Of a stretch of 32,831 nucleotides of DNA, positions 5,051 to 22,330 are shown piece by piece. The notes below the pieces were generated by a model. That model made no database searches and was not told the DNA's origin. It saw nothing but the letters and a program-made list of their open reading frames with translations. Source of the DNA: an uncultured Elusimicrobia bacterium (lineage in GTDB: Bacteria; Elusimicrobiota; Elusimicrobia; Elusimicrobiales; UBA9959). The translations under genes were made by a program, and so were the position numbers. The stretch is from assembly GCA_937898825.1 (NCBI GenBank), contig CALEIX010000178.1, forward strand, positions 1 through 32,831, given 5' to 3'. Positions within the stretch are counted from its first letter, which is position 1. The number at the start of each line of letters is the position of its first letter.

Positions 5051-5973
5051 TTTATTGCCTTAAGTTCTCCGTCCCCGTAATGTTTAAGATACTCCGTCCA
5101 TATTCCCTCGCAGATATTGAAAAGGCGACAGCCGAAACATCTAGGCGTTTTCCTTCTTGAAACCATCTGCCTTGAAATCACCGCATCTGTATTTTTGAAA
5201 TCAGGCGCCCAGTGTTGCGTAAAAAACAGCACTCTTTCATTTATATCGCTTATATGGCTTAAATGGCGGTGGAAATAACACAGCGGCACATATCTCACCT
5301 TCCAACGAGGAAAACCGTTTCTATCTCCCACATTAAGGACCTTTCTCATATATAGCGCACATTCGGAAATTTTCGGCACCAGATTTTCAAAACAATCATG
5401 CGCTCCGCCATACGTCGGGTCAACAAAGATAAATTCCACATTTTTAATTCCATACTTTATGTAAAGACGACCTATTTCAGGAAGGTAGCGCATATTGCTT
5501 TTTACAACAGTAGTGTTTCCGTTTATATTCTTAAATCCTAACTTTCTCAAATTCTCTATGCCTTTGACCAATTCGGAGAAACTGCCCGGAACCCGCGTAA
5601 GACGATCGTGAACTTCGCAGTTGTGCCCGTGGATGGAAAAAATGATTCCGTCTATGCCGGCTTCCACTATCTGGCGGGCAAATCTTATATCTGAAAAAAT
5701 CCTGCCGTTAGTCGAGGTTAAAACTTCATTTATACCCAACTTTTTGGCCGTTCTTACCACGCAGGCAAAATCCCTTCTTATCGTAGACTCCCCCCCTATG
5801 ATTTCCACTATATCGGCTTTTTCTTTCTTCGCCTTGTAAAGTTCCCTCACTATCTCGGAAGTGGTTTTTTCCGGAAAATCCCTTTTCCTGGAATCAATGC
5901 AAAAAACGCACTTATTGTTGCATTTATATCCGGTGAATATCACTATCTTTTTCAATCTCGTTGGAGCATTCAT
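5047..5973 (-). CDS. Radical SAM protein, HxsC-like with four-Cys C-terminus
   Basis: This 308-residue enzyme has C18-x3-C22-x2-C25 (YKCNNKCVFC) and then IGGES instead of the usual GGEP, a Pro-to-Ser change also seen in the HxsB at 8034-9497. SIHGHNCEVHDRLT is conserved with the enzymes at 7130, 11768 and 15189. The C-terminus has VPLC plus C-x2-C-x5-C-x-G (PRCFGCRLFNICEG). It is coupled by ATGA overlaps to the protease-like gene upstream (5970) and the SPASM enzyme downstream. Proposed role: a maturase of the His-Xaa-Ser system. Assignment rests on motif pattern and context. Confidence 0.82.
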   Translation of the reverse strand: MNAPTRLKKIVIFTGYKCNNKCVFCIDSRKRDFPEKTTSEIVRELYKAKKEKADIVEIIGGESTIRRDFACVVRTAKKLGINEVLTSTNGRIFSDIRFARQIVEAGIDGIIFSIHGHNCEVHDRLTRVPGSFSELVKGIENLRKLGFKNINGNTTVVKSNMRYLPEIGRLYIKYGIKNVEFIFVDPTYGGAHDCFENLVPKISECALYMRKVLNVGDRNGFPRWKVRYVPLCYFHRHLSHISDINERVLFFTQHWAPDFKNTDAVISRQMVSRRKTPRCFGCRLFNICEGIWTEYLKHYGDGELKAIK

Positions 5974-7133
5974 AAAATTCCAGTAAGACGAAGAATATCT
6001 TTATTAAAAAGCAACATCAGCAAAACGCCGGCGAATATCCACAACGCAAAGGGTCTGCCCTTTATCACTTCTATCTTTGGGTCCTTGACATTAAGCCGTG
6101 AAAGCCAGTCTTTGAGCAAATCAATATGCTCCTTGCAAAAGCCATCCCTGAAAACATCGTCAAACGCGCCTTGAAAAACCGGGTTCTGCTTCAATAAAAG
6201 AAGTGTGGAAGTTGAAGGTATCATACCAGGCCCTAGTTCGTCCTTTCCCACGAAATAGGCGTCTTTTTTCTCCATTATAAACTCTATCATAAACCTTCCG
6301 ACAAAAAGAATGACGCTAAACTTAAAGACGTTTACGACAGCACCTGTTAAATAATTTAAAAGACGGTATGGAAAGAAGAAGTATCCACATATGAAATAGA
6401 TTAAATAAACAATACCGGAAAAGTAAAGCCATTTACGGCTTCTGAAAATTCCACCTATTCTGTCCCACAGAAAGAACAAGAAAAAAAATATTAAATCCGT
6501 CCTCTTCATAACATGTTCCAGGAAGCCCTTAAATTCCATCACGAAAATCTGATGAAATAGAAACAACATGGAAAGATTGACCGCGCAGGCCAAAAACGCA
6601 AATCTTTTTTTTCCGCCGGCCCTGGCAAGGGCAGTGAACCTCTCCTTTATTCCATTCCATTCCTCGCTAAAAAAATCCGACGGTCCAACGCGATTTATTC
6701 CTTCAGAAATATAATTGATAACGGCATAAACAGACGCCACCACAAATATATTTATCAAAACGCTTAAAAACAGGTAGCCGGGAAAAGTTTTAATAAAAGG
6801 ATTTATCAGCGGGAGTGATAACGAGCACAATATGAAAAATTTAGCATCCCCTGCCGGCCAAATCTCTCCGTACCACAAAACAACAGCGGCAATCACCGTC
6901 AGGGCAAAATGCTGAAGGAAAAGAACATAGAAAATCGGGTTCAGAAAATCCGAAACTCTGCCGTTTAAGCCGAGATAGGTGTTGACGCCTGACAGAAGCA
7001 TGGCGGCTATAAAAATCCTGGCTCCAAGCACCGTTCTTTTGTTAAATATTTTCCTGAATTCAAAATCCTCCTTGACCACGGCTACACACCATCCCAGAAA
7101 AAAAATCAAATAAGTCAGGGATATATATTTCAC
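5970..7133 (-). CDS. A24 prepilin-peptidase-like membrane aspartyl protease
   Basis: A 387-residue multi-pass membrane protein with about eight or nine hydrophobic segments. Two features fit the type IV prepilin peptidase (A24, TadV/CpaA) domain in the first 130 residues: Asp23 in KEDFEFRKIFN after the first membrane segment (D-x5-I-x-N, as in the family), and Asp96 in WPAGDAKFF (the GDxK motif). The remaining 250 residues do not match the standard peptidase: more membrane helices, then a soluble segment (about 285-360) and a last helix. It overlaps the radical SAM genes on both sides by 4 nt, so it belongs to this operon and not to a pilus cluster; no pilus genes are in the window. Inference: it cleaves the leader or membrane anchor of HxsA or another hxs product. 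Confidence 0.72.
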   Translation of the reverse strand: MKYISLTYLIFFLGWCVAVVKEDFEFRKIFNKRTVLGARIFIAAMLLSGVNTYLGLNGRVSDFLNPIFYVLFLQHFALTVIAAVVLWYGEIWPAGDAKFFILCSLSLPLINPFIKTFPGYLFLSVLINIFVVASVYAVINYISEGINRVGPSDFFSEEWNGIKERFTALARAGGKKRFAFLACAVNLSMLFLFHQIFVMEFKGFLEHVMKRTDLIFFFLFFLWDRIGGIFRSRKWLYFSGIVYLIYFICGYFFFPYRLLNYLTGAVVNVFKFSVILFVGRFMIEFIMEKKDAYFVGKDELGPGMIPSTSTLLLLKQNPVFQGAFDDVFRDGFCKEHIDLLKDWLSRLNVKDPKIEVIKGRPFALWIFAGVLLMLLFNKDILRLTGIL

Positions 7134-8020
7134 TTTGAGACCGCCTTGATCTCCGCGTCCCCGAAGAATTTATAATATTCTCTCATAAGACCCAGACAAT
7201 TTTTTCTTAACACGCATCCCCGGCATTTTTTCGTATAAATTCTTTCCTCTTTCGGCAAAGTAACCCAGGCATACCTGCGCAACACTGGAGGAAGAACGCA
7301 CAGAGGAAAATGATAAAGGCGAAATTCTTTAAACCGCTTTATGAAATTCAGATTTTTCATTATCGCAAAAGAAGAGTCTTCGAACCTGAGCGCTATTTTT
7401 TGACGGTTTTCAAAAGAGATGCCCTCTATTTCGTAATGTATCACCACCACTCTGTAGTCGCGGGCAGCAGCCAGTTTTTTCAGAAGCATTTTTACCAGGT
7501 CTCCGAAATCGGATATATTCTGTTTTATGAGGACTACTCTTATTTCCGTTTTTTGACCCCGGGAAAAGCGGAAGATATTTTTCAGGCCCTCCAGCGTTCT
7601 ATGAAAACTGCCTTTCGCTCCGCTTATCCTGTCATGCTTTGCCGCAGTTGAACCATGGATTGAAACTGCTATTTCAAAGGGAGGATTAGCTATGGCGAAA
7701 AATTTTTTTGCAAATTCTTGGTCAGCGAATTTTTTTCCGTTGGTTAAAAGGGTAACCTGAACATCTGGAACCCTTTTTCTAAGGTATGCAACAAATTTTA
7801 AAAAATCCGGATGAAGAGTGGGCTCTCCTCCGGTCAAACTTATATAGGAAGATTTATCAGCATTTTTATGGTAAACATCTTCCCCTTTCAGGTATTTCTC
7901 GAATTTCTTTATCTGCCATTTTAGCGAATACTGCCGGGGGTTTTGCAAAACGAACGAGCGCATATTGGTGCACATTATGCATTTATTATCGCATTTATTC
8001 CAAACGGCTATATCCGGCAT
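7130..8020 (-). CDS. hxsC: Radical SAM maturase HxsC-like (His-Xaa-Ser system)
   Basis: The longest frame begins at a TTG at 8104 and would overlap hxsB by 71 nt. I prefer the ATG at 8020, 13 nt after the hxsB stop, because it places the first cluster Cys at residue 10, as in the related protein at 1646-2488; the ribosome site is weak either way. This gives 296 residues. Motifs are C10-x3-C14-x2-C17 (NKCDNKCIMC), TGGEPTL, and SIHGSTAAKHDR. The C-terminus has FPLCVLPP... RRYAW followed by KKCRGCVLRKNCLG, the closest match here to what I recall of HxsC proteins. It lies directly downstream of an HxsB gene, the classical HxsB-HxsC pairing. It probably installs a modification on the His-Xaa-Ser core. 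Confidence 0.78.
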   Translation of the reverse strand: MPDIAVWNKCDNKCIMCTNMRSFVLQNPRQYSLKWQIKKFEKYLKGEDVYHKNADKSSYISLTGGEPTLHPDFLKFVAYLRKRVPDVQVTLLTNGKKFADQEFAKKFFAIANPPFEIAVSIHGSTAAKHDRISGAKGSFHRTLEGLKNIFRFSRGQKTEIRVVLIKQNISDFGDLVKMLLKKLAAARDYRVVVIHYEIEGISFENRQKIALRFEDSSFAIMKNLNFIKRFKEFRLYHFPLCVLPPVLRRYAWVTLPKEERIYTKKCRGCVLRKNCLGLMREYYKFFGDAEIKAVSK

Positions 8021-8033
8021 AGTCAGGCCAAAA

Positions 8034-9497
8034 TCAAAATTTCTCTCTGCTCTTTCTTCTTTCAGCGATACCTTCGCCCCCTGTTGACTCAAACCATGAT
8101 TCAAAAATTTTTCTATTTTTGCGGTCCTGGAGTCTTTCCGTCAAAACCTTAAAAATCCCCTTTTGCACACCACACCAATAGGAATTCCTCAAATTCCCCC
8201 ACGGAGTTTTTTGCTCCTCGTAATTATGAACCGGGCACACCCCGCAAAAAGGCTTGAAAGCACACCTGAAGCATTCGGGCTGATTCTCCAGACAGGAGGT
8301 TATTACGCACAGCTTTGAGGGGGCGCTTGCGACTACATCCGCATAAGAATGGTCCCTCACATTCCCCAACCTAAAGGAAAAATCCCTGCGGGCGCCCACC
8401 ATTCTTCCCTCATCGCAGGTGTAAACATCCCCATTCCAATTATAGGCAATCTGTCCTATAGCAGCTCCGCAGGGAGAACGCAAATCAAGATAATTCGGAT
8501 CTCTTCCAAAAAGCATTTTTTGAAGAATAATCGCCGCTGTTCGCTCGATAAATTTTTCGCCCCTTGAATTTATTTTCAGGCAATAATCCAACGCCCTTTT
8601 ATAAAAGAAAACAAAATCCTCTGCTCTATATCCAATTCTGGAGAAAACCTGCTTAGCGTATCCCACAGGGGAAAGGGGTCTTATAAAAATACCCCCCAAA
8701 CCCAGAGCACGATATTCATCTACTATCTCCCGGGGATAATCCAGCGAATATTTGGTCGTAGTCATCAAGGCAGAAGGCAGAGAGTCTTTTCTTCCCCTGT
8801 TCTTTTCGGAATAATCTGCGAAACGCTTCAGCCAGTTAACCGTAATATCGTAGGAGGAGCCACCGAAGTAAATTCTATTTCTATTGTGAACTTCTCTCGG
8901 TCCGTCAAGGGAGGTGCATACCGAAATCCGATTTTTATTGAGAAATTCAAACTTTCTTTCATCTAACAAGGTAAAATTGGTAACGACCGAAATTTCAAGA
9001 TTCTTGCCAAGACTTCGGTTCTTTCTCAAGGCGTAGTCAACCGTTTTTTTAAGCGTCCGCCAGTTTATCAGGGATTCTCCTCCCTGAAATTCTATGGTGA
9101 TATTTTTGTTTGGGGAGGACAAAGCCATGTCAACACATTTTCTGGCAGTTTCTTCGTTCATATCTGTATTTTTGAAATCCGCTCCCAGAGCACGGCAGTA
9201 AACGCAACGGTGATTGCATTTAAGGGTGAGAACAAAAATGTGAAGAGACGGCCCGTTTTCTCCAGGAGGATTTAAATCTTTAACCGCTGAAACTGCTTTT
9301 CCAAAATCGAGATGGGTTGAGAAAAAACCTTTCTTTTTCAGCTTGCGGGCTAAAGACGGTTTTTTATCAAATTTCCCGTTTTTGACCAAATCAAATTCCG
9401 AGGGTTCCAAAATCATCCAATTTCCAAAATCGTTGGAAATGAAAACCCCTTTTTCGGTCTTTTCAAAATTAAAATTTAAAAGTTTGTCTCTTTGCAT
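8034..9497 (-). CDS. hxsB: Radical SAM/SPASM maturase HxsB (copy 1)
   Basis: A 487-residue protein of HxsB type. The N-terminal 80 residues (FNFEKTEKGVFISNDFGNWM) form the family's leading domain, probably a peptide-binding RRE-like region. Next come GPSLHIFVLTLKCNHRCVYC with C94-x3-C98-x2-C101, and FQGGES (Ser in place of Pro). The SPASM region is intact: SPCGAA, TCDEGR, CFRCAFKPFCGVCPVHNYE and WGN...WCG. It resembles the protein at 19657-21099 in most blocks, so the two are recent paralogues. The start overlaps the preceding gene by 29 nt; hxsC follows. HxsB is an established partner of HxsC and HxsA; its exact chemistry here is unknown. Confidence 0.88.
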   Translation of the reverse strand: MQRDKLLNFNFEKTEKGVFISNDFGNWMILEPSEFDLVKNGKFDKKPSLARKLKKKGFFSTHLDFGKAVSAVKDLNPPGENGPSLHIFVLTLKCNHRCVYCRALGADFKNTDMNEETARKCVDMALSSPNKNITIEFQGGESLINWRTLKKTVDYALRKNRSLGKNLEISVVTNFTLLDERKFEFLNKNRISVCTSLDGPREVHNRNRIYFGGSSYDITVNWLKRFADYSEKNRGRKDSLPSALMTTTKYSLDYPREIVDEYRALGLGGIFIRPLSPVGYAKQVFSRIGYRAEDFVFFYKRALDYCLKINSRGEKFIERTAAIILQKMLFGRDPNYLDLRSPCGAAIGQIAYNWNGDVYTCDEGRMVGARRDFSFRLGNVRDHSYADVVASAPSKLCVITSCLENQPECFRCAFKPFCGVCPVHNYEEQKTPWGNLRNSYWCGVQKGIFKVLTERLQDRKNRKIFESWFESTGGEGIAERRKSREKF

Positions 9498-11766
9498 TGT
9501 TTTTTAATATCGGTCTTATCTCTCCTGAGCCGAACGTTTTCAAATAATCAGATGCCGCGCCCGCGCAATTAAGCAAAAACCTGCATTCATACTCAAAACT
9601 CATCTTGACCAGTTCATCCCCATACTGCGATTCGCGGGCATCTCCCCTGTCTTCGGGCAGAAGAACATCTGCAGCCATATCATGCTCTGGATAAAGAAAG
9701 CAAAGCGGTATATTCAATGTTTTTATGGATACATCCCCGGAAAGCGCCAAAGAAGCTTTTTTCACCGCTCTGGCGGCGGCTGTGTATGTAACGCGTAAAC
9801 TGCGTTTATTTTGAGAGTTTTTTTCAAAATTACCCGTATAGCGGGGAAACCACAAAATAAATTTTTTCACTTGATACTCGCCGAAATATCTTATCGTTGC
9901 AGTCAGAGTGTTTAAATTCAGACCCGTAAGAACGACAACCACGGTAAGGTCAATCCCCGCTTTTTTAAGATTTTCCAGCGCTTTTAAAGAAAGAGGCAAT
10001 TGCCTGCCCGTGCCAAAAAGTTCGGCATTTATCCTGTAATCGCGACTCGCCGTTTTCAGAAAAACAGAATTCAAACCAGCATTTTTAAGGAAGAGAAGGT
10101 AGTTATGATCGGCCAGCTTCATTCCGTTGGTAAGAATGGTTCTCTGAATAAACCCACTTCTTTTCGCCAACTTCAGAAAAAACCCGAGGTCCGCAGAAAC
10201 CGTCGGTTCGCCGCCCGCGAAAAGTATATTGTTAAAAAATTTTTTCGCCCGACACATATTTAGCGCCGCAACATTTCTGTTCAAAATGCCGCCCCTGTAA
10301 GAATTGGGGCAAAACAAGCAATTCAGGTTGCACCGTCCGCCGAACTGAAATTCATAAACGCTTGCTGAAAGACGATTGAAAAGAGGATTTGAAACAACGG
10401 GGAACTTTTTCTGCGCGCTTGATTTAATCTGAGAACGATATTTCCTTTCAAGAACCTTAGTTGTCCTGGCTTCAAAAAACTCTTTTTTTATCTCAAAAGC
10501 AGCTTCCTCCCTTTGCAGGACGGCATACGCCGGGCCGATGTCGGAGAGTATTTTCTTCCGTGAAAGATTCTTAATCTCTTTTCCAAAAACGGACTCAATA
10601 TTTTTCCCGAAGCGCGTTCTGAAATCTTTTTTGGGAATTCTTCCCCGGTGAAGCGTCTCAAGCAACACAAAGTTTATCATTTCGTCTTTCATGCTCAAAC
10701 CAACAAACTTTTCAATAGGATACTTTCCGCGTAAAAGCGCTTGCTCATATTTATACTCATCGCAGATATTCTGATATCTTGCCTCTCGTACGGCGTATGA
10801 AACCGCGCTGGGCCCGAGTCCCAAAATGGAATAGGATCCTTCTTCGCCCTGGTCATAACTGTATGGCCATTGATTGCCTTTCCTCTTATAGACCCAATGC
10901 CCACAGCGCATGATATATCCCGAAGAGGTAAGAATTTCAAGAGCCCTTCTTCTAAACCTCCGCGCCTCCTCCTTCGCCGCGCCGGATAAGGAGCCTTTCT
11001 TTTCCTCAAAAGCGCACTGATATCTTGGCTGAAAATCGAATATATAAATCCTTTCCAGATCCAGTTCCGCTATTTTTTTCACGTCTGCGATAAAACTTTC
11101 ATAGCCCTGATGCGGCAGACCGCACATTAAGTCCGCCTCAACCTGCTTTATGCCGATTTTCTTTGCCTTCTTCAAAATTTCAAGAGCGCGCTCTCCGTTC
11201 TGCACCCGATTATGCCTTTTCATCAATTTATCGTCAAGACTCTGAATTCCGACTGCAAGCCAGTGAACATTATTTTTCTTCAGCGTTCTAAGTTTCTCTT
11301 CTGTAAGTGTGGAGGGACTGGCTTCAAAAGCGATTTTGGTCCCAGAGGAAATATTGAAATTGGCCCTCGCAATTTTAAAAAACTCATCCAGGTCTTCAGT
11401 ATTCATAAGGCTTGGAGTGCCTCCTCCAACGCAAAAGTACCTTATTTTCCTCCCCCTGAAAGCGGATTTCATTAAACGCGCCTCCATCTCATATGCGCGC
11501 AGGAAATTTTTTATCTCTTTCCTTAAGCAGGGGACTTTCTTGTAAAACCCGCAGAAAGAGCATTCGCTCGGGCAAAAGGGGAAATGCACATACACGACAG
11601 GCTCGTTCGAATGCTTTTTGAGCGACCTGTTCCACAATTTCGTCAAATCAACGCCCTCGTTAAATCTTCCCCACGCCGCCATCGGAGGATAATTTGGCGG
11701 AAACTCGGGCAAAGTGTCGGCATCGCATTTTGAAAATAATTCCCTTAAAACTTCGTCTTTTATCAT
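9469..11766 (-). CDS. Double radical SAM fusion: HemN-like domain + HxsC-like domain
   Basis: I choose the ATG at 11766, one base after the upstream stop and preceded by a GGTGA-type site. A longer frame from 11934 would run 167 nt into the previous gene. The result is 765 residues. Residues 1-430 are HemN/HemW-like: YPPMAAW, C65-x3-C69-x2-C72 (PFCPSECSFC), VGGGTPSL, AVGIQS, DLMCGLP and LGLGPSAVSYA. Residues about 465-765 form a complete second radical SAM domain: C479-x3-C483-x2-C486, AGGEP at 517-521, TNGMK, then IPLCFLYP and a C-terminal ECRFLLNCAG. In that last motif one Cys of the usual CxxC is Glu. Start positions and motifs match the stand-alone HemN-like protein at 16586 (also C65, C69, C72). 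Possibly two successive radical steps on one peptide. Confidence 0.85.
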   Translation of the reverse strand: MIKDEVLRELFSKCDADTLPEFPPNYPPMAAWGRFNEGVDLTKLWNRSLKKHSNEPVVYVHFPFCPSECSFCGFYKKVPCLRKEIKNFLRAYEMEARLMKSAFRGRKIRYFCVGGGTPSLMNTEDLDEFFKIARANFNISSGTKIAFEASPSTLTEEKLRTLKKNNVHWLAVGIQSLDDKLMKRHNRVQNGERALEILKKAKKIGIKQVEADLMCGLPHQGYESFIADVKKIAELDLERIYIFDFQPRYQCAFEEKKGSLSGAAKEEARRFRRRALEILTSSGYIMRCGHWVYKRKGNQWPYSYDQGEEGSYSILGLGPSAVSYAVREARYQNICDEYKYEQALLRGKYPIEKFVGLSMKDEMINFVLLETLHRGRIPKKDFRTRFGKNIESVFGKEIKNLSRKKILSDIGPAYAVLQREEAAFEIKKEFFEARTTKVLERKYRSQIKSSAQKKFPVVSNPLFNRLSASVYEFQFGGRCNLNCLFCPNSYRGGILNRNVAALNMCRAKKFFNNILFAGGEPTVSADLGFFLKLAKRSGFIQRTILTNGMKLADHNYLLFLKNAGLNSVFLKTASRDYRINAELFGTGRQLPLSLKALENLKKAGIDLTVVVVLTGLNLNTLTATIRYFGEYQVKKFILWFPRYTGNFEKNSQNKRSLRVTYTAAARAVKKASLALSGDVSIKTLNIPLCFLYPEHDMAADVLLPEDRGDARESQYGDELVKMSFEYECRFLLNCAGAASDYLKTFGSGEIRPILKNNAKRQTFKF

Positions 11767-11767
11767 A

Positions 11768-12667
11768 TCACCCGCTTTTAACCGGCTTAAATTCCGACCA
11801 GCCGTAAATTTGCGGATATTCCCGCCACGGCCCCTCGCAAACATTAAAATAAGCGCATTTAGTGCACTTTTTGTGCTTGACCTTTCCCTCACTCCTGCGA
11901 TAATCCCCATAATTTTCCACATATACGTTCGCATCGACCACGGGCCCTTCAGGAATTATTCTCTCGGCCACGCACTGCTCATATCCCTTCATAAAACAAT
12001 AAGGAATGGCTTCCGTAAAACATAAAGTTTTGTTCCCAACACCTATGTCAAGTGCCCTGCGCACGTAGGGCATTATTTCGCTTTTCCTTGGAACTATCCA
12101 TTTTCTGTTTTTAAAAGCGGTCCCTATAATGTGAACAAACGCTAATTGAAACTGATCCACTTTAAGATACACAAGCAATTTGGCGAGTTCCGGAAGGTCC
12201 TTGTAATTGGCTGAAGTTATAACTGTATTCGTCAAAACATACATACCGAGCTTTTTACAATTCATTATCCCCTTCACCACCTGAGCGAAACTTCCCCTGG
12301 AATGCGTGAGACTTTCATGTATCTTGGCCCTTGAACCATGAAGAGAAGGCCCCATTTCGTTCACTCCGGCTTTCTTCAACTTAAGGCAATAATCGTAATA
12401 GGCAAACCTCCTTCCGTTTGTCTGAACCTGAATACTGGAAAAGCCCAATTTCTTTGCCTCTTTCACCGCTTCGATAAGATTCGGATGCAGAGTCGGTTCT
12501 CCACCGGTAAACACGACTCCGTTTATTTTTTTTGCTGCAGCGTCCTTTAAAATCTTTTTTATTTCCGAAAGTGGCCTGCGCTTTATTATGGAACGTTTGT
12601 CTCCCTGAGCGCAAAAATCGCAGCGATTATTGCAGTCAAATCCTATTTTAACATCTATTCTCTTCAT
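11768..12667 (-). CDS. Radical SAM protein, HxsC-like with four-Cys C-terminus
   Basis: The start is taken at the ATG at 12667, 17 nt after the upstream stop; the longer frame from 12724 overlaps the previous gene. This gives 299 residues. Motifs are C12-x3-C16-x2-C19 (FDCNNRCDFC), TGGEPTL, VQTNG, SLHGSRAKIHESLTHSRGSF, then IPYCFMKG and KKCTKCAYFNVCEG with a Tyr-rich tail. It resembles the enzymes at 5047 and 15189 most. It follows an HxsB-type gene (12685-14097), repeating the HxsB-HxsC pairing seen at 8034/7130. The gene ends one base before the start of the double radical SAM gene. Confidence 0.84.
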   Translation of the reverse strand: MKRIDVKIGFDCNNRCDFCAQGDKRSIIKRRPLSEIKKILKDAAAKKINGVVFTGGEPTLHPNLIEAVKEAKKLGFSSIQVQTNGRRFAYYDYCLKLKKAGVNEMGPSLHGSRAKIHESLTHSRGSFAQVVKGIMNCKKLGMYVLTNTVITSANYKDLPELAKLLVYLKVDQFQLAFVHIIGTAFKNRKWIVPRKSEIMPYVRRALDIGVGNKTLCFTEAIPYCFMKGYEQCVAERIIPEGPVVDANVYVENYGDYRRSEGKVKHKKCTKCAYFNVCEGPWREYPQIYGWSEFKPVKSG

Positions 12668-12684
12668 TGTCGAATTATACCGAA

Positions 12685-14097
12685 TCAAGATTCGTGAAGC
12701 GAAAGCCACTTTTTGAATATCCACATCGTTTCTCTGCTGTCAAGTTTTCGGCACAGCAATTTGAAAATTCCTCTGTAAATTTTACATCTGTCGTTCACAA
12801 TCATATTCCCCCAGAATGAATTCTGTGAGGACAGGTTCAACGCCGGCATTGCGTGGCAATAGGGATTCCAGGCACATCTGGAACACCTCACCTGATTAAG
12901 AAAATTGAAATTACTCAGAAGAAGAAGTTTGGAAAGCGGCCTGTTCAAGATGTCCTTGAAGGAATCTCTTTCAACACTGCCCAATTTAAGAGTTTCTTCA
13001 CCTGAGTTGGCGATCATTCTCGCTTCGTCACTTCCATATATTCCTCCATCCCAATTATACGCCAGACGCATGAGTAAATCTAAATTATGATATCTCGGGC
13101 GCTGGTAATTAAGCATATGACTGAGAAACAAAAAGGCACCTTTTTCATAAACGCCTATGCCTTTTTTATTGAGGGAAATAATATAATCCAGGGCCCTTTC
13201 GTAAAAAGACAAAAATTCCTCCGGCAAGTAACCGACTTTGTTCCAATGCGTTTTGGCCCTGCCGGTTTTATCCAGAGGTCCTACCTGAATTCGCACCAGA
13301 CCAAGGCGAAGATATTCATCCACTATTTCTTTGGGATAATTAAGCGAAAATCTGCTTATCGTGCATATTGCGTTCGGTTTTTCAAATTTCTTTTTAATGG
13401 CAAGAGCATTTATCCGTCCCAGCCATCTGACCGCTGCTTCGTAAGACGAACCTTTCAAGAGTTTTCTGTTAAGGTCGTGAATGAATTTAGGACCATCAAG
13501 CGAAGAGCAGACGACAACCCTGTTTGCCAACAGGAATTTTAAAATTTTCCCATCCATGACGGAGAGATTGCTTACTATGGAAAAACTTAACTCCTTTCCC
13601 TCCTTCTCACCGCGCTTCTTTGCCTTTTCAACTATATATTTCACAGCTCTAAAATTCAAGAGCGGTTCCCCTCCCTGAAACTCTATCATTATTTTCTTGT
13701 TCGGGACTGAAAAGATAAAATCAAGGGTTTTCCTGGCTGTTTCCAACGTCATGTCGCTTTCAAGCGGGCGAAACGGTCCGGCCGAGGCTCCGCAATAAGA
13801 ACAAAACGAATTGCATCTCTTTGTAACGCTGATTATATGAACATGAGGTCCTTTCCAGTCCATGAAAAAATTTCGCCGTAAACATTTCGCCGCCCTATCC
13901 ATGTCCAGATAGTCGGAAAAAAACATTCCTTTTTTCAAGCATTGTTTTGCTTTTTCTCCAACACTTTCGCCATTCACAAAAGACCTGAAATCCACACTGC
14001 TCAAAGAACAATTGAAGGAAAAAATGTTAGAGATAAAATATCTCTCTCTTATCTTCGCGAAATTAAAATCCATGGGTTTGGCGGGCGTTTTTTTCAT
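12685..14097 (-). CDS. HxsB-like radical SAM protein with degenerate SPASM domain
   Basis: The 470 residues keep the HxsB layout: N-terminal FNFAKIRERYFISNIFSF, GPHVHIISVTKRCNSFCSYC (C95-x3-C99-x2-C102), FQGGEPLL, SSLDGPKFIHDLNR and a C-terminal helical end. Several auxiliary-cluster Cys present in both other HxsB copies are gone. The PCGAA position reads DLLMRLA, TCDEGR reads GSDEAR, and CGVCPVYN reads CHAMPALN. Only CSRCAWNPYC and one Cys near the end (NDRCK) remain. The radical SAM centre is intact, so this is not a simple pseudogene. It has likely lost one or both SPASM clusters and may have changed function or act as a partner subunit. It is coupled to the gene upstream by ATGA. Confidence 0.82.
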   Translation of the reverse strand: MKKTPAKPMDFNFAKIRERYFISNIFSFNCSLSSVDFRSFVNGESVGEKAKQCLKKGMFFSDYLDMDRAAKCLRRNFFMDWKGPHVHIISVTKRCNSFCSYCGASAGPFRPLESDMTLETARKTLDFIFSVPNKKIMIEFQGGEPLLNFRAVKYIVEKAKKRGEKEGKELSFSIVSNLSVMDGKILKFLLANRVVVCSSLDGPKFIHDLNRKLLKGSSYEAAVRWLGRINALAIKKKFEKPNAICTISRFSLNYPKEIVDEYLRLGLVRIQVGPLDKTGRAKTHWNKVGYLPEEFLSFYERALDYIISLNKKGIGVYEKGAFLFLSHMLNYQRPRYHNLDLLMRLAYNWDGGIYGSDEARMIANSGEETLKLGSVERDSFKDILNRPLSKLLLLSNFNFLNQVRCSRCAWNPYCHAMPALNLSSQNSFWGNMIVNDRCKIYRGIFKLLCRKLDSRETMWIFKKWLSLHES

Positions 14098-15185
14098 GTG
14101 TAACCCTCCGCAAAAAGTTTGGCAAGATACTTCAGGTAACTCCTGAACCTCTCATGGGTATGCGATAGATGAAGGATTCGGGCAACGGCATTTTTGGCAA
14201 TCTCAGTTCTCCTGCTGTAGGCAATAGAACCTTCTTTTAGAGCCGGTAAAACATAATATTCTGCGGCACACTTTTGACAGCGCCTTGAATCCCGGCGCGG
14301 AAGACAGGCGTTAAATCTGTCTATTATCCCGCTTTCAGCAGAACCAATTGAAACTTTTCTTCTCTCCTCCATATTCGCCACAAAAGCATAGGGATAAAAT
14401 GCGAAAGTTCCGTCCGGATAGAGTTCAAGGTCCCTCAAAAAAGGACAAAAGGCGTTCGGATATTCTCTCTCTCTGAAAAATTCAAGGAAGGGTTCAAAGA
14501 GAATAAACTCGTTATTCTCGACCATCTGAAAGACGTCTCTCACAATCTCTTCCAGGTTTGCGGAAAAATTCTCGTAATCCTCCCTCCGCCACCTGAAGCC
14601 ATGAACGCATTCCAGGCCGATATTCCTGAAACCAATTCTCAAAAGTTCCCTGAAGTCCTCGTGCATACGGGTGGCCTGTTGTGGATGAACGCAGAAAATC
14701 ACATGGGCCCTTTCGCCCAATTCAGAGAGAATAAGCGAAATTTTAGGCATGAGAAGATTGTATGAACCCTGCCCGCCGGGAAGCTTTCGGGTAAAATCCT
14801 GAGTAGCAGAACTTCCCGAAAAACTTACGGAAAACCTTATATCATTTGCAGCTATATATTTCAGATGTCTTTTCTCGACCAGAAGTCCGTTTGAAGCAAT
14901 AGAAACTGAAAGTTGCTTTTTTCTTTTCGCGGCGATTTTTCTTGCCTCCTCTATTATTTTCGCGGATAAATCAAATGCAAGCATGGGTTCGCCGCCATAT
15001 ATTTCAAGGATTTTCTTTTCGCCGGGAGAGCCTATAAAAAAATCAAGTGACTTTTTTGCCTTCTCAAAAGGGATTCTCATATTCTCGCTCTTGTCGATGA
15101 AGCAATGAACGCATCTCAGGCAACAATCCGACGTAACAGCTATCTTGAATTTGTTTATCTCCTTGTTGAAAGTTGTTCTTTTCAT
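14094..15185 (-). CDS. Radical SAM protein, SPASM-like with partly missing cysteines
   Basis: A 363-residue protein with C21-x3-C25-x2-C28 (SDCCLRCVHC), YGGEPML and IASNGLLVEKRH. The C-terminal part has FCPFLRDLELYPDGTFAFYPY, which is SPASM-like, but Tyr stands where the family usually has Cys after YP. It then has ACLPRRDSRRCQKCAAEYY. The auxiliary cluster is therefore probably incomplete or unusual. The middle region has ECVHGFRWRREDY. It is an outlier relative to the HxsC-like enzymes around it. It is followed by the HxsB-like gene (ATGA overlap) and lies 3 nt after the first gene of the operon. Confidence 0.78.
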   Translation of the reverse strand: MKRTTFNKEINKFKIAVTSDCCLRCVHCFIDKSENMRIPFEKAKKSLDFFIGSPGEKKILEIYGGEPMLAFDLSAKIIEEARKIAAKRKKQLSVSIASNGLLVEKRHLKYIAANDIRFSVSFSGSSATQDFTRKLPGGQGSYNLLMPKISLILSELGERAHVIFCVHPQQATRMHEDFRELLRIGFRNIGLECVHGFRWRREDYENFSANLEEIVRDVFQMVENNEFILFEPFLEFFREREYPNAFCPFLRDLELYPDGTFAFYPYAFVANMEERRKVSIGSAESGIIDRFNACLPRRDSRRCQKCAAEYYVLPALKEGSIAYSRRTEIAKNAVARILHLSHTHERFRSYLKYLAKLFAEGYT

Positions 15186-16256: not shown

Positions 16257-16313
16257 AAAAACCTCTGTATGGCGGGAAAGTTTTGTTTTGGTAAAACAGT
16301 TCTCCCGGAAAGC

Positions 16314-16341
16314 ATTCTAAAAAACCAGATTTATTCTGCAA
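16314..16341 (-). promoter_or_regulatory. Candidate promoter of the large radical SAM operon
   Basis: On the minus strand, TTGCAG (16341-16336) and TAGAAT (16319-16314) are separated by 16 bp, a moderate sigma-70-type match (-10 five of six, -35 only three of six). It lies about 58 nt upstream of the first ATG and just downstream of the palindrome at 16350-16372. The call rests on pattern only. Confidence 0.4.
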
Positions 16342-16349
16342 ATAACGTC

Positions 16350-16372
16350 TTGTATTCACATCGTGAATACAA
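16350..16372. promoter_or_regulatory. Perfect 10-bp-arm palindrome, likely operator
   Basis: TTGTATTCAC (16350-16359) and GTGAATACAA (16363-16372) form a perfect inverted repeat with a 3-nt spacer. It lies immediately upstream of the candidate -35 box of the minus-strand operon, in the gap between divergent units, where a dimeric regulator would bind. The half-sites could equally fold as a hairpin in a plus-strand transcript. No regulator gene is in the window. Confidence 0.5.
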
Positions 16373-16585
16373 CATTTCAAAATGAAGATTGCAAAGTGCA
16401 AATTGCAAAGTCATTCTTTCCTTAATGCTACTTGCTGCAAGCTCTAATAGCCGTTCTGATAAATCGCTTCTATTTTGCATTTTTCAATCTGCATTCTGCA
16501 TTGAGCCATCGCGCTTACCGGCCTGGAATTCTGGTCAAAGTTAGAACGCCCGCGAAATACATCATATATTATATAAAATGTATAT
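16373..16585. other. Intergenic stretch with degenerate TTGCA/TGCAT repeats
   Basis: No coding frame is convincing. The segment repeats near-copies of ATTGCAAAGT and TGCAAATTGCAAAG (about 16385-16412) and CTGCATTCTGCATT (about 16490-16503), similar in style to the micro-repeats at 116-412. The last 30 bp are A/T-rich (TATATTATATAAAATG) before the start at 16586. I see no good Shine-Dalgarno for that start and no promoter I would defend. Confidence 0.4.
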
Positions 16586-17943: not shown

Positions 17944-18228
17944 TCAACACCATCCGCCTCTCGCATGCGATCCGTGGGACCCATGGGAGCCGTGAGAGCC
18001 GTGAGAACCGTGACTCTGATGACTGACATGGTACCTTGAAGTAAAATAATTGGTGTGAATCTTGGCGTATGCCAGACCCGAATCCAGTATGGCTCCTCCA
18101 AGTATTCCCAACGCAAGACCTGTCTTGACTATGTCCGAGTCAAGCATCTTTCCCTCTTCGCTGCTTAAAAACAACTTCACATTCTTCAATGCCCGGTTTT
18201 TTCTTTTTTTATCATTTTTCTTCTTCAT
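17944..18228 (-). CDS. hxsA: His-Xaa-Ser repeat peptide, HxsA-type precursor
   Basis: A 94-residue protein in three parts: a very basic N-terminus (residues 1-18, mostly Lys/Arg), a hydrophobic segment (about 33-54, GLALGILGGAILDSGLAYA), and a C-terminal core with seven His-Xaa-Ser triplets at residues 67-87 (HVS, HQS, then HGS five times), His88 and a tail ending GGWC. The triplets are the mark of HxsA, the substrate of HxsB/HxsC. The five HGS units use five different nine-base spellings, which points to selection on the peptide rather than a recent DNA expansion. The ATG at 18228 has AAGGAG seven nt upstream and overlaps the preceding gene by 17 nt. The basic leader followed by a hydrophobic helix gives a pilin-like membrane topology. 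The terminal Cys could form a disulfide, thioether or lipid link. Confidence 0.88.
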   Translation of the reverse strand: MKKKNDKKRKNRALKNVKLFLSSEEGKMLDSDIVKTGLALGILGGAILDSGLAYAKIHTNYFTSRYHVSHQSHGSHGSHGSHGSHGSHARGGWC

Positions 18229-19309
18229 ATTCCGACTCCTTCAGAAATTTCCTGACATCCTTATTGATCTTTTCCATTAATTCCTGTTGTTCTTTCTTGA
18301 ACTTCTCCTCTTCCATTTTCTTTCTCTTCTGTTCAGCTAAATACTCCTTTCTTTCCTCTTCGCTCATTCTTGTAATATCATTTTCCGCCTTGTCCACGTT
18401 GGTGAGAAACCGGCAATAATCTTTGGAAATCCTGGCAGCTATCTGAAAACATATATCTTGTGATTTTTTCAGATAAGCCCTGCATATATCCCTTTTGCTT
18501 CCCGAAAAACGCAAGCAGTTTTGTTTTTTAAATGCATGGTAAAAGTTGTAGAGCGCCACGCAGGTGTCCCTGTTGTTGCAGTCGGATAATTTAGCCGGCA
18601 AATTAGAAAGGCACTCTTTTTTCATTGAAGGAGACAGATACTTATGTTCCACCCCCGCCGAACATATCCCCTCCAGTCCCCTGGCGGCTTCTTCGCAAAA
18701 TACATCTTCGGGAACGTGTGGCGCTCCTTCCGGCCACAACGTCATAAACCGGCGGCAAATTTTCTCATCCTTTCTTCTTCCGGCCACGTATCCGGCAAAA
18801 TCTATCACCTTACAAAATCTTTCACAATCTTCTATCAGCACATCCGCCTTTTCGGCATTTCCCTGGATTTTTGGCAAAGATTTACAATATATATTCTCAC
18901 CCGAAACAAGAGAGCGGCAAAGCATATAATCGGTCAAAAGTGTGTAAATCTGAAAGCTTTCTTTGTCAGTGAACGTTCTCCTGGAGGGTTTATCCACGCC
19001 CCACATGCTCCCGCGCTCTGCCATAATATTTTCAATACTTCCCTGTTCGCAGGCAAGTTTATAGTTTCCATCGGCGGCAAGAACAGATATATTGCCCGAA
19101 ATATCGCCTATATCTATATCCACATCCACATCCTTTGCCAAAGACATTTCTTCAGTAGCTCCCTTCGGCAAGGGAACTCCAATACTCCCCTTTTTTTGCT
19201 GAGATATCTTACTTACCGGGATACTCTCGGTACTCTTTTGTTCTATATATCGCAAAACCAGAATGAGGATAAATATACCGACGATGATTATTATTCCCTT
19301 TTTCTTCAC
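18212..19309 (-). CDS. Membrane-anchored Cys-rich protein of unknown function, GTG start
   Basis: A GTG start at 19309 with AAGGAGGT five nt upstream gives 365 residues. The N-terminus is a short basic leader (KKKG) and one membrane helix (about 5-19), so the rest should lie outside the cytoplasmic membrane. The body has 15 Cys, mostly within recurring short helical motifs (EDCERFC, KICRRF, SDCNNRDTC, DICRAY, DICFQI, DYCRFL), suggesting several disulfides and an internal repeat fold. An acidic stretch DVDVDIDIGDISG sits near residue 60. The last 60 residues are highly charged and probably a coiled coil (EERKEYLAEQKRKK). I do not recognise the family. It lies directly upstream of hxsA in the same operon and overlaps it, so a role as anchor or assembly partner of the mature peptide is plausible. 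Confidence 0.7.
   Translation of the reverse strand: MKKKGIIIIVGIFILILVLRYIEQKSTESIPVSKISQQKKGSIGVPLPKGATEEMSLAKDVDVDIDIGDISGNISVLAADGNYKLACEQGSIENIMAERGSMWGVDKPSRRTFTDKESFQIYTLLTDYMLCRSLVSGENIYCKSLPKIQGNAEKADVLIEDCERFCKVIDFAGYVAGRRKDEKICRRFMTLWPEGAPHVPEDVFCEEAARGLEGICSAGVEHKYLSPSMKKECLSNLPAKLSDCNNRDTCVALYNFYHAFKKQNCLRFSGSKRDICRAYLKKSQDICFQIAARISKDYCRFLTNVDKAENDITRMSEEERKEYLAEQKRKKMEEEKFKKEQQELMEKINKDVRKFLKESEYEEEK
18236..18241 (-). promoter_or_regulatory. Ribosome binding site of hxsA
   Basis: AAGGAG on the minus strand, 7 nt before the ATG at 18228 and inside the end of the upstream gene. It fixes the hxsA start and indicates strong independent translation of the precursor. Confidence 0.8.
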
Positions 19310-19351: not shown

Positions 19352-19373
19352 GTGAAAAAATATCCGTTTTCAC
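19352..19373 (-). terminator. Weak hairpin in the only sizeable gap of the hxs operon
   Basis: GTGAAAA (minus strand, 19373-19367) and TTTTCAC (19358-19352) can pair over an 8-nt loop. It begins at the stop of the small hxsD-like gene, and a run of seven T follows about 12 nt after the hairpin. It may be a partial terminator or attenuator that alters the ratio of maturase genes to hxsA. The stem is A/T-rich, so this is tentative. Confidence 0.25.
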
Positions 19374-19675
19374 ACTAACCTTTCTTTCACATTTTCGCCC
19401 ATCGCTGAAAGCAATGCTTTTGTTACTATGATTTGAGCAACCTTTCCGTTTTTGCCGTGCAAATCAAGCCTGCACTGCTGATTCAGCGCTTCGTTTAAAA
19501 ATTCGCCCATTTTACTTTCATTTTCGCCGGAAACCCTGATTCTCAAAAACCTGCCGCTTCTCGAAAGGGTTATTTTCATTTCATCTGCGTAGATATTTGC
19601 CGCAAGCTTTACAGCCTGGCGCGAATAGAGTCTTTCGTCAACCAAAATTTCTCTTTTTATTTCTCCGGTATCCAT
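19370..19675 (-). CDS. hxsD: HxsD-like small protein (short copy)
   Basis: The 101 residues fit the HxsD pattern: an N-terminal strand followed by YSRQAVKLAANIYADEMKITLS, a strand RIRVSG, and FLNEALNQQCRLDL, the equivalent of the HxsD motif recorded as LLNDYxLRE. A helix IIVTKALLSAM follows. It starts 19 nt inside the upstream hxsB gene. HxsD is a conserved non-enzymatic member of the His-Xaa-Ser system; a peptide-binding or scaffold role is inferred. This copy is more diverged than the one at 21071-21520 (for example ANIYADEMK where that copy has AYSLTDEAY). Confidence 0.7.
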   Translation of the reverse strand: MDTGEIKREILVDERLYSRQAVKLAANIYADEMKITLSRSGRFLRIRVSGENESKMGEFLNEALNQQCRLDLHGKNGKVAQIIVTKALLSAMGENVKERLV

Positions 19676-21099
19676 TTTTTCAAAATCCTCTCCTTTTTTT
19701 TGTCCTGCAGAAACTTAAAAATCAAATCAAATATTCCCATAAAAATAGCACATCTTTCATTGGACAGCATATTCCCCCACACACTTTTCTGCGCCTCATG
19801 GTTATATACGGGACAAACGCCGCAATAGGGCTTATAAGCGCATCTGAAACATACCGGCTGCTGCTCCAGATTTGAAGAAAGAGCGCACAGCCGACAAGCA
19901 CCGCTTTTCACTATACTCTCATATTCGTCATGCACAGTGCCAATTCTGAAAACATCGTCCCCCTGCTGGGCTATCATCCTGCCTTCGTCGCAGGTGTATA
20001 AGCCGCCGTCCCAATTATAGGCGATCTGACCTACAGCCGCTCCGCAAGGATATCTCAAATCCAGATAACCCGGGTCCCTCCTGTTAAGAATCTTTTCAAG
20101 AAGCAAGGAAGCATTTTTTTCCCTTATCCTTACCCCTTTTTCGTTCAATTTAAGTATATACTCCAGAACCTTTCCGTAAAAAGAAAGGAATTCCCGGGAA
20201 TTGTATCCTATCTTATCCCAGACTCTTGCGGCATAACCTATAGGCGACATCGGTCTTACAAAAATATCTTCCAACCCCAATTTTACGTATTCGTCCACAG
20301 TCTCTTCAGGATATCTCAAGACAAATCTGGTTACGGTAAGAAGGGCGCTCGGTTTAAATATCCTGCTTCCGCCTTTTTGAGTATCATGCCTCCTCATAAA
20401 ATATTTAATCCATTTTACCGCAAGGTCATACGAACTTCCTTTTGAATACGGCCGGTTCCTGTCATGAACTTTGCGCGGCCCATCTAAAGATGTGCATAAG
20501 GAAACCTCATTGGCAAGCAAAAATTCGGCTTTTTCCGCGTCCATAAGGGAAAAATTCGTCACCAGGGCAAGACTTAATTCTTTGTTTTCAGACACCTCTT
20601 TTTTTCTCGCATACTCTATGGTTTTCTTCAGGGTTTTCCAGTTTAAAAGCGGCTCCCCGCCCTGGAATTCGATGGTTATGGAGGGAGCGGGACTTTGAAA
20701 AGCAATATCAACCGCCCTTCTGGCTGTTTCAAAGCTCATATCCGTCTTATGAACCCTTTCCGGAAGCGCTCCGGATTGACAGTAAAGACAGTTATAGTTG
20801 CATCTCAGGGTTATTACGAAAATATGAAGCCCCGGTCCAAAATGCAAAAAGGCATTTTTCAGGCGCCACGTTTCGCTCAGGGAATCAAAATCCATCCAGT
20901 TCCTGACAAAACCTTTTTTGCTTAAATCCTGGTGAAGAGCAGGTCGTAGGTTAGAAGTACCAGACATAAGCCTTGTAAACTCTTTCTCACTCAAAAAGCG
21001 AAAATAACCAAAATCATTGGTAATGAGGCGTTTCCCCGAAACCTTACGCCAATTCAAAAGATAGGCTCTGCTATTTTTTCCCTTCGCTCCTGGCGCCAT
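19657..21099 (-). CDS. hxsB: Radical SAM/SPASM maturase HxsB (copy 2, core operon)
   Basis: A 480-residue HxsB-type protein: leader domain LLNWRKVSGKRLITNDFGYFRFLSEKEF, then LHIFVITLRC with C100-x3-C104-x2-C107 (RCNYNCLYC), FQGGEPLL, LVTNFSLMD and TSLDGPRKVHDRNR. A full SPASM set follows: YPCGAA, YTCDEGR, CRLCALSS, CFRCAYKPYCGVCPVYNHE and NERC. It sits between two HxsD genes in the same operon as the His-Xaa-Ser peptide, so it is the best candidate for the primary maturase of HxsA. The start overlaps the upstream hxsD by 29 nt with GAGAG before the ATG. No HxsC gene is in this operon; the HxsC-like enzymes are all in the large operon to the left. Confidence 0.9.
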   Translation of the reverse strand: MAPGAKGKNSRAYLLNWRKVSGKRLITNDFGYFRFLSEKEFTRLMSGTSNLRPALHQDLSKKGFVRNWMDFDSLSETWRLKNAFLHFGPGLHIFVITLRCNYNCLYCQSGALPERVHKTDMSFETARRAVDIAFQSPAPSITIEFQGGEPLLNWKTLKKTIEYARKKEVSENKELSLALVTNFSLMDAEKAEFLLANEVSLCTSLDGPRKVHDRNRPYSKGSSYDLAVKWIKYFMRRHDTQKGGSRIFKPSALLTVTRFVLRYPEETVDEYVKLGLEDIFVRPMSPIGYAARVWDKIGYNSREFLSFYGKVLEYILKLNEKGVRIREKNASLLLEKILNRRDPGYLDLRYPCGAAVGQIAYNWDGGLYTCDEGRMIAQQGDDVFRIGTVHDEYESIVKSGACRLCALSSNLEQQPVCFRCAYKPYCGVCPVYNHEAQKSVWGNMLSNERCAIFMGIFDLIFKFLQDKKKERILKKWIPEK

Positions 21100-21520
21100 A
21101 TCTCTCTTCCCATGTCATCGTTACTTGCTTTCCGCCTTCCTTCTTGTTTTCCCGCTCTATTTCTTCCTCAACCTGTTTTATCAACTCGTCCAGTTCCTTT
21201 TCCTGCTCAGGAGTGAGGCCGTCTTCGGTTTTTGGAACCTTCCCGTCGTCGGTTAAAGCTTTTATTACCAAAAACTCTCTCAAGGCGGCGTTTTCCCTAA
21301 ATAATCTTTCACGTAGTTTTTCATCCTCGAGCTCGCGCAAAAATCTTTTTCGCAGGGTGTTTAAATTGGCATTAGATTTGGGGGTTATTTTCACTTCAAC
21401 GGCGCCCCTTCCGGCAAATCTTAAAAAAACATAAGCCTCATCTGTGAGGGAATAAGCCGAATATCTTATGGTTTCAAGGGAGTATTTATTGAGACCCACC
21501 TTAACGGAAATTTCCTTCAC
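21071..21520 (-). CDS. hxsD: HxsD protein (long copy), GTG start
   Basis: The start is GTG at 21520, preceded by AAGGAGG 4 nt away. The 149 residues begin with a typical HxsD domain: VGLNKYSLETIRYSAYSLTDEAYVFL, a strand VEVKITP, then FLRELEDEKLRERL (the LLNDYxLRE-like motif) and FLVIKALTD. After about residue 98 it adds an acidic tail of about 50 residues, predicted helical (TPEQEKELDELIKQVEEEIE), absent from the short copy. It lies 12 nt after the first gene of the operon and overlaps hxsB. The tail may be a docking element for HxsB. Confidence 0.82.
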   Translation of the reverse strand: MKEISVKVGLNKYSLETIRYSAYSLTDEAYVFLRFAGRGAVEVKITPKSNANLNTLRKRFLRELEDEKLRERLFRENAALREFLVIKALTDDGKVPKTEDGLTPEQEKELDELIKQVEEEIERENKKEGGKQVTMTWEERYGARSEGKK

Positions 21521-21532
21521 GCACCCTCCTTG

Positions 21533-22330
21533 TTATTGTATCCTGCAGCAAAGTAACCAGCCCGACCTATCGCACTGGGTGGAAGTATAAACCCAGTTCC
21601 AACGACTCTGCAGTCTTCCACCCAAAAAAAGCATGCCTCTCACGCACGAACCCGCGCCATAAGTCGCAAAAACCCTTTCATTCCAGCCACATCTCTCATT
21701 CGTGTTTATGCCATACCATACATACCTGCACATGCCTCTGATTCTGCCGGTAACCCTTAAATCTCCATTAACCCGCGCATCTCCCTGAACATCCAGGGGA
21801 TAACTGGGATTTCTGCCTATACCAACCCGCGTGCCGTCAAATCTAAGAGAATCGTTTCCGGTCAGGATTATCCTGGCGTCATAATCGCACCAGCGATCGT
21901 TTGCGAAATCAATATAGGGAGTGCCCTGTCCGCCCAGCTCTATCGAAGAACCCTGGTCGCTACTTAAAATGCCTTTATGCGGATACTTCGAACCCCAGTA
22001 TATCTGTTGCCTGGACCTGACATTTCCAACTACATCCAGTCTCTGGGTAGGCGAAGTAGTTCTGATGCCCACATTTCCGTTAACCGCCAGTTTGGCGCTG
22101 CCCGGGGAGGTATATCCACCTACAGCGACTCCGCTTCCATCCCTTGCCAGAACTGTCAGATTGGTTGTAAGAAGCCTGGCATATCCCCCATAAGGAGAGG
22201 GATAATAGGTGGTAAGAGTTAATTGTTCAGAACCCAAAATTTTCGGATGAAAGCACAAAAAAGCAAGGCAGATAATTCCAACCATCGCTTTCTGTCCAAA
22301 TCTAATACTTATTATTATTTCCCGCTTCAT
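21533..22330 (-). CDS. Secreted fibre-like protein, first gene of the hxs operon
   Basis: The 265 residues begin with a signal peptide (basic start, hydrophobic 15-27, probable cleavage near 33-34 before SEQLTL). The mature part opens with LTLTTYYPSPYGGYARL and contains two copies of a tail-fibre-like motif: VGIRTTSPTQRLDVVGNVR and VGIGRNPSYPLDVQGDAR. These repeats usually form beta-rich trimeric shafts in fibre or adhesin proteins. The last 60 residues are rich in Cys, Trp and Gly (MCRYVWYG, ERCGWN, SCVRGM, STQCDRSG, LLCC), suggesting a disulfide-bonded head. The gene follows a consensus promoter and GGGAGGTG. It is not an obvious hxs component, so its place at the head of the operon suggests a product displayed on the surface. 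Confidence 0.75.
   Translation of the reverse strand: MKREIIISIRFGQKAMVGIICLAFLCFHPKILGSEQLTLTTYYPSPYGGYARLLTTNLTVLARDGSGVAVGGYTSPGSAKLAVNGNVGIRTTSPTQRLDVVGNVRSRQQIYWGSKYPHKGILSSDQGSSIELGGQGTPYIDFANDRWCDYDARIILTGNDSLRFDGTRVGIGRNPSYPLDVQGDARVNGDLRVTGRIRGMCRYVWYGINTNERCGWNERVFATYGAGSCVRGMLFLGGRLQSRWNWVYTSTQCDRSGWLLCCRIQ

Follow-up and report, generated by a model that had tools for sequence, protein, structure and literature searches.

A minus-strand open reading frame at 17944–18228 of the 32,831-nucleotide stretch of Elusimicrobia DNA analysed here (the window) ends in RGGWC, and among its relatives this ending strictly co-occurs with one radical-SAM enzyme related to CteB and PapB, P14094, encoded at 14094–15185 on the minus strand and proposed here as the tail enzyme. 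The pairing of tail and enzyme is well supported by comparison across genomes. With modest confidence, we favor the reading that the frame encodes an Hxs-type radical-SAM precursor, that P14094 cross-links the cysteine of its tail, and that leader cleavage and export follow.

Precursor gene and operon

The frame runs from an ATG at 18228 to a stop at 17944 and encodes 94 amino acids (MKKKNDKKRKNRALKNVKLFLSSEEGKMLDSDIVKTGLALGILGGAILDSGLAYAKIHTNYFTSRYHVSHQSHGSHGSHGSHGSHGSHARGGWC); the plus-strand frame of the same interval is interrupted by stops. The HxsA-like product carries a SEEGK leader with a basic N-terminus and the motif FLSSEEGKMLDSDIVK, a hydrophobic stretch that is modest for a membrane helix (19-residue Kyte-Doolittle maximum of 1.45 at 37–55) and leads to AYA, and seven consecutive HxS triplets (HVS, HQS and five HGS) directly ahead of the last residues. 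Its C-terminus is HARGGWC, with the RGGWC codons AGA GGC GGA TGG TGT at 17947–17961 and the stop TGA at 17944–17946. The final residue is the only cysteine of the precursor, and repeat and tail contain neither Asp nor Glu. Each of the five HGS units is spelled differently (CACGGTTCT, CACGGCTCT, CACGGCTCC, CATGGGTCC and CACGGATCG), which is uncommon: of the loci that have four or more units, only the window and L044 show it. The triplet count, the varied spellings and the RGGWC end had all been reported in the preliminary description and are confirmed on the minus-strand frame. A search for a second precursor in the gaps at 2489–2834 and 16257–16585 found no repeat-bearing frame.

The basic, hydrophobic leader with its A-x-A makes export or membrane targeting plausible, in line with the membrane insertion proposed earlier, although the conserved SEEGK motif that precedes the hydrophobic part more closely resembles a leader for enzyme recognition.

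The precursor closes a core operon, with a Shine-Dalgarno-like AAGGAG ahead of its ATG and a start that overlaps the 3' end of the gene upstream. In order, the minus-strand genes encode a conserved, secreted-looking protein of no known family at the operon head (21533–22330), HxsD (21071–21520; 50.0 bits at a cut-off of 50), HxsB proper (19657–21099; 488 bits, cut-off 370), an HxsD-like protein (19370–19675; 36.1 bits, cut-off 50) and a cysteine-rich protein with a hydrophobic N-terminus, likewise outside the known families (18212–19309), whose gene immediately precedes that of the precursor in most f1 relatives.

The window holds 13 radical-SAM genes with 14 CX3CX2C motifs; thirteen such genes in about 20 kb (413–21099) is the top count among compared loci, for which the median is 5 per 20 kb. 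Groundwater Elusimicrobia are reportedly rich in radical-SAM genes. HxsB is present in three copies that exceed the curated cut-off of 370 bits (488, 473 and 372 bits); the 473-bit copy lies at 8034–9497 on the minus strand. On that strand are also an HxsC4/HxsC-like gene (11768–12724; 156 bits to HxsC4, cut-off 500), an 821-residue, two-domain HemN-like and HxsC-like fusion with two CX3CX2C motifs (9469–11934), an HxsC4-like gene (5047–5973), a PapB-like gene (4010–5050; 76 bits) and HxsC-like genes at 7130–8104, 2835–4076 and 1646–2488. None of the window's HxsC-like genes exceeds the curated HxsC cut-off, the best being that at 7130–8104 (171 bits against 267.9). A SufS-like cysteine desulfurase (413–1645, minus strand; 299.5 bits, cut-off 475) possibly supplies Fe-S clusters; it was rejected as a companion of GGWC tails, as its relatives are mostly at non-GGWC loci (1 vs 9).

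The precursor itself falls below the NCBIfam cut-offs for HxsA3 (26.4 bits, cut-off 65) and HxsA4 (27.5 bits, cut-off 55); the 24 relatives in the alignment all hit HxsA4 with E values no higher than 0.01, the best being 4.9e-26. Since HxsB is a true member and the precursor is below both cut-offs, the locus works like an Hxs system whose precursor is not a strict HxsA. The earlier assignment to the HxsA type thus draws its support from the neighboring genes and from these weak profile matches.

Selection and tail forms among relatives

Homologues of the precursor turned up in 34 of the 61 near genomes and, phylum-wide, in 89 of 341, mainly in three families (f1, f14 and f15); the relatives are Elusimicrobiota MAGs. 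Against 20 GGWC relatives, pS was near saturation in the repeat, tail and leader (0.80, 0.93 and 0.82) and pN was far lower (0.145, 0.042 and 0.175). The tail value is biased because rows were picked by GGWC, as they were not for repeat or leader, and the way the tract is defined makes its H and S positions partly constant. By these substitution patterns the peptide is under purifying selection, which upholds the earlier view that selection on the peptide maintains the repeat, but this does not extend to triplet number, which spans 1–34 and was rejected as a conserved feature. Such repeats expand and shrink easily, as expected if the tract were a low-complexity accident and the frame not a gene. 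We give that reading almost no credence in view of the conserved leader, the purifying selection, the ribosome site and a fixed place in the operon in dozens of genomes.

The C-termini of 84 distinct copies, surveyed in the neighborhood set, fall into a few discrete forms: GGWC, GSY and GQW/GAW/GSW, with others rare. GGWC ended 38 copies, Y, W or F ended 43, and three ended GSGT. The GGWC tail is almost always xRGGWC. Part of f15 (L147, L148, L149 and L195–L201) keeps RGGWC within CRGGWCNPRC or CRGGWCCPRC, with three or four cysteines altogether, and one precursor (L156:9801-10322), whose repeat is mostly HxN (HANHGNHGNHGNHSN), ends in GSGGWC. At L140–L155 and L177–L194, the non-GGWC precursors are nearly all aromatic-ended (GSY, GQW, GAW, GSW, FSF) and adjoin radical-SAM genes specific to GxW or GSY tails. 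A whole-genome search for the DNA pattern of the GGWC codons was uninformative because a reversed control pattern was equally or more frequent.

The preliminary description had named random loss of the cysteine among homologues as evidence against its proposal. The cysteine is indeed absent from about half of them, but its absence is non-random: the cysteine tail tracks P14094. This distribution also bears on whether the product is a His-rich metal-binding peptide, with the terminal cysteine as a free, uncross-linked metal ligand. Histidine recurring at every third position, over as many as 34 units, together with a single cysteine would suit metal binding; left unexplained are why half of the relatives have no cysteine at all and why cysteine tails require a specific radical-SAM enzyme, and we judge this reading improbable.

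Co-occurrence of the GGWC tail and P14094

Across f1 and f14/f15, all 38 genomes carrying a GGWC copy had a P14094 orthologue and none of the 48 lacking such a copy did. These counts cover part of the extra precursor copies; G030 and G231, in which a contig end cuts the precursor, and G023, in which no precursor was found, fall outside this scoring. Scores were bimodal, with orthologues at 143–822 bits, a broken copy in G203 aside, and other, partial radical-SAM matches at 82 bits or less. In f1, orthologues occurred in 27 of 59 genomes (218–822 bits, the one in G015 being split over two contigs) and the remaining genomes scored at most 70 bits. The first 33 genomes gave P14094 in 21 of 21 with GGWC and 0 of 12 without, and tail predictions written for 20 further genomes before their precursors were read were correct in all 20 (5 GGWC, 15 not). 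The comparison of the 34 f14/f15 genomes was not blind, as some tails were known beforehand; it gave P14094 in all 12 with GGWC forms (143–254 bits except the broken G203 copy, and including a 190-bit match cut by a contig end in G209) and scores of 82 bits or less in the 21 readable genomes without them. Where both kinds of tail occur in one genome (G009, G006, G016 and G147), P14094 adjoins the GGWC copy. It is often the next gene, for example 27 bp past the precursor in G232 and some 20 bp past it in G018. At L195 (G203:C1:1588772-1589819), the orthologue next to an intact GGWC precursor is fragmented and carries an in-frame TGA, from either sequencing error or decay.

The ending is present in relatives only together with P14094 and is therefore probably its target. 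Cross-linking, one of the roles proposed earlier for the terminal cysteine, accordingly gains strong indirect support, because in each of the genomes read the cysteine tail tracks a radical-SAM enzyme of CteB/PapB-like type. Lipidation, another of those roles, found no support and was rejected: the precursor lacks a lipobox cysteine after the signal helix, and its sole cysteine is the last residue.

On a tree of the HxsB copy adjacent to the precursor, the tail label switches six times, four of them on well supported branches, and 3.2 of 4 independent pairs point in the same direction with none opposite; the tree-corrected test was not significant, and its sign test cannot reach 0.05 because there are so few independent pairs. 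With only four to six switches, tail and enzyme might simply have been inherited together with no functional link. We nevertheless consider shared ancestry alone very unlikely, given the success of the held-out predictions, the recurrence of the pairing in both families and in genomes with both tails, and L144, where a GGWC copy sits within an otherwise non-GGWC HxsB clade and has divergent P14094 paralogues nearby.

Other companions of the tail

Further genes follow the GGWC tail. The second HxsB copy of the window (B12685; 12685–14097, minus strand; 372.4 bits, cut-off 370) belongs to a clade found only at GGWC loci (18 of 18 rows). Within 10 kb, the group of an HxsC-like radical-SAM gene (C15189; 15189–16256, minus strand) was found at 21 of 39 GGWC loci, that of a HemN-like radical-SAM gene (N16586; 16586–17941, plus strand) at 14 of 39 and P14094 at 24 of 39, each with 0 of 46 at other loci. 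A membrane protein with a type IV prepilin peptidase signature (5970–7133, minus strand), in which D23, KI.N and PAGDAK are invariant, was found near GGWC loci only, six in all. A Peptidase_A24 match was obtained for 3 of 5 of its relatives (best E 1.6e-5), and its predicted model had no fold match in the PDB. On the motif and the Pfam match, this protein could be the leader peptidase; it also has a long C-terminal extension.

As several radical-SAM genes accompany the tail, the module could act through one other than P14094. GGWC might then be a signal for recognition, sorting or processing, or provide a cysteine for a disulfide or dimerization, handled by another protein of the module, with P14094 modifying, for example, the repeat. 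We regard this as rather unlikely, though it is the alternative that the co-occurrence of the second HxsB clade, C15189 and N16586 with the tail, and the restriction of the prepilin-peptidase-like protein to GGWC loci (6 vs 0), would fit. Against it, f15 retains P14094 as the sole companion at loci whose surroundings lack the others linked to GGWC (N16586, and often C15189), and the mature peptide's only cysteine appears exactly with the CteB-like enzyme. P14094 stands out among the companions because f15 keeps it and because it is often the adjacent gene.

Other tails have radical-SAM companions of their own: groups of 445 and 322 amino acids were found at GSY loci only (19 and 13), and further groups with GxW tails only. 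It seems, then, that tails are traded together with their enzymes in modular fashion.

Relationship of P14094 to thioether-forming maturases

A profile of 20 P14094 orthologues matched PDB 5wgg at 3.9e-43 over residues 8–322, nearly the full length. The HxsB copies, used as a control, also match 5wgg first, over the radical-SAM core only, and the kinship of P14094 to 5wgg is therefore closer but not unique. The predicted model of P14094 (pLDDT 91) had 5wgg and 5why as its nearest Foldseek matches (E 2.7e-21, TM-score 0.71 by query length), followed by anSME (1.5e-15). Both entries are titled 'Thioether Bond Formation', and 5wgg is the structure we take to be CteB. The conserved cysteines of P14094 are C21, C25 and C28 (CX3CX2C) along with C247, C294, C303 and C306. 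By sequence profile and predicted fold, P14094 is kin to the thioether-forming maturase CteB, its nearest solved relative. CteB is described as the first structure of this kind, and in it a substrate cysteine is bound to an auxiliary cluster (PMC8172795). No full-length relative of P14094 was found on the plasmids searched.

Proposed maturation and implications

In the pathway we propose, the basic leader with its SEEGK motif and hydrophobic part would be read by HxsB/HxsD-type proteins, which would modify the His-x-Ser repeat, and the last residues would form an interchangeable tail module. Where this is GGWC, P14094 would act on it with the single cysteine as thiol donor, and a thioether or other cysteine cross-link to a nearby Gly, Trp, Arg or His would close a small C-terminal ring. 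The leader would then be removed, at the A-x-A site or by the prepilin-peptidase-like protein, and the mature peptide would leave the cytoplasm. These steps differ in how probable we hold them to be: action of P14094 on the tail is likely, a cysteine thioether as its product has about an even chance, and leader cleavage with export could equally well prove right or wrong.

More tentatively, Elusimicrobiota Hxs loci may use a tail code, in which a common repeat body bears GGWC, GSY, GxW or, in f15, CRGGWCNPRC, each with its own radical-SAM enzymes. If this holds, a new CteB-like clade would form a new cysteine cross-link at the extreme C-terminus of GGWC peptides, its acceptor being neither Asp nor Glu. 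Neither such a code nor the pairing of GGWC with a CteB-like enzyme was found in the open-license papers searched, which are part of the literature, and no characterization of Hxs chemistry was found there. The loci offer a matched natural comparison, the repeat with and without a cysteine tail and one enzyme coming and going alongside, which suggests that the question of enzyme function can be reduced to a two-gene test and that tails are exchangeable together with their enzymes.

Comparison with known systems

The Hxs kind is already known from NCBIfam (HxsA/A2/A3/A4, HxsB, HxsC and HxsD). The window shares with it a HxS repeat near the C-terminus and a compact operon with HxsB above its cut-off and HxsC-like genes; of the two HxsD-type genes, one scores right at the cut-off and the other below it. 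It differs in its three HxsB copies, its 13 radical-SAM genes and its RGGWC end, and in that the precursor is under the HxsA3 and HxsA4 cut-offs and the HxsC-like genes are all under that of HxsC. The annotated HxsA/HxsA2 proteins of Aeromonas, Acidiphilium and Nostoc plasmids have a longer C-terminal part (Aeromonas) or end in ..HYSSSY or ..HYSSSR, unlike the RGGWC of the window.

With CteB, the radical-SAM/SPASM maturase of SCIFF (PDB 5wgg and 5why), P14094 has in common the radical-SAM core, auxiliary cysteines and the fold. It is only about 23% identical to CteB, lacks the N-terminal recognition domain and has fewer SPASM cysteines, and whereas SCIFF is a six-cysteine peptide, P14094 would act on a His-rich repeat that carries a single, terminal cysteine. 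The best NCBIfam match of P14094 is the ranthipeptide maturase PapB (NF047865), at 129 bits, far under the cut-off of 340. The cross-links that PapB makes connect Cys with Asp or Glu (PMC9413430). The Cys-X3-Asp/Glu acceptor arrangement is absent from the window's tail, which, having no Asp or Glu, therefore does not carry the PapB motif, and the acceptor must be another residue.
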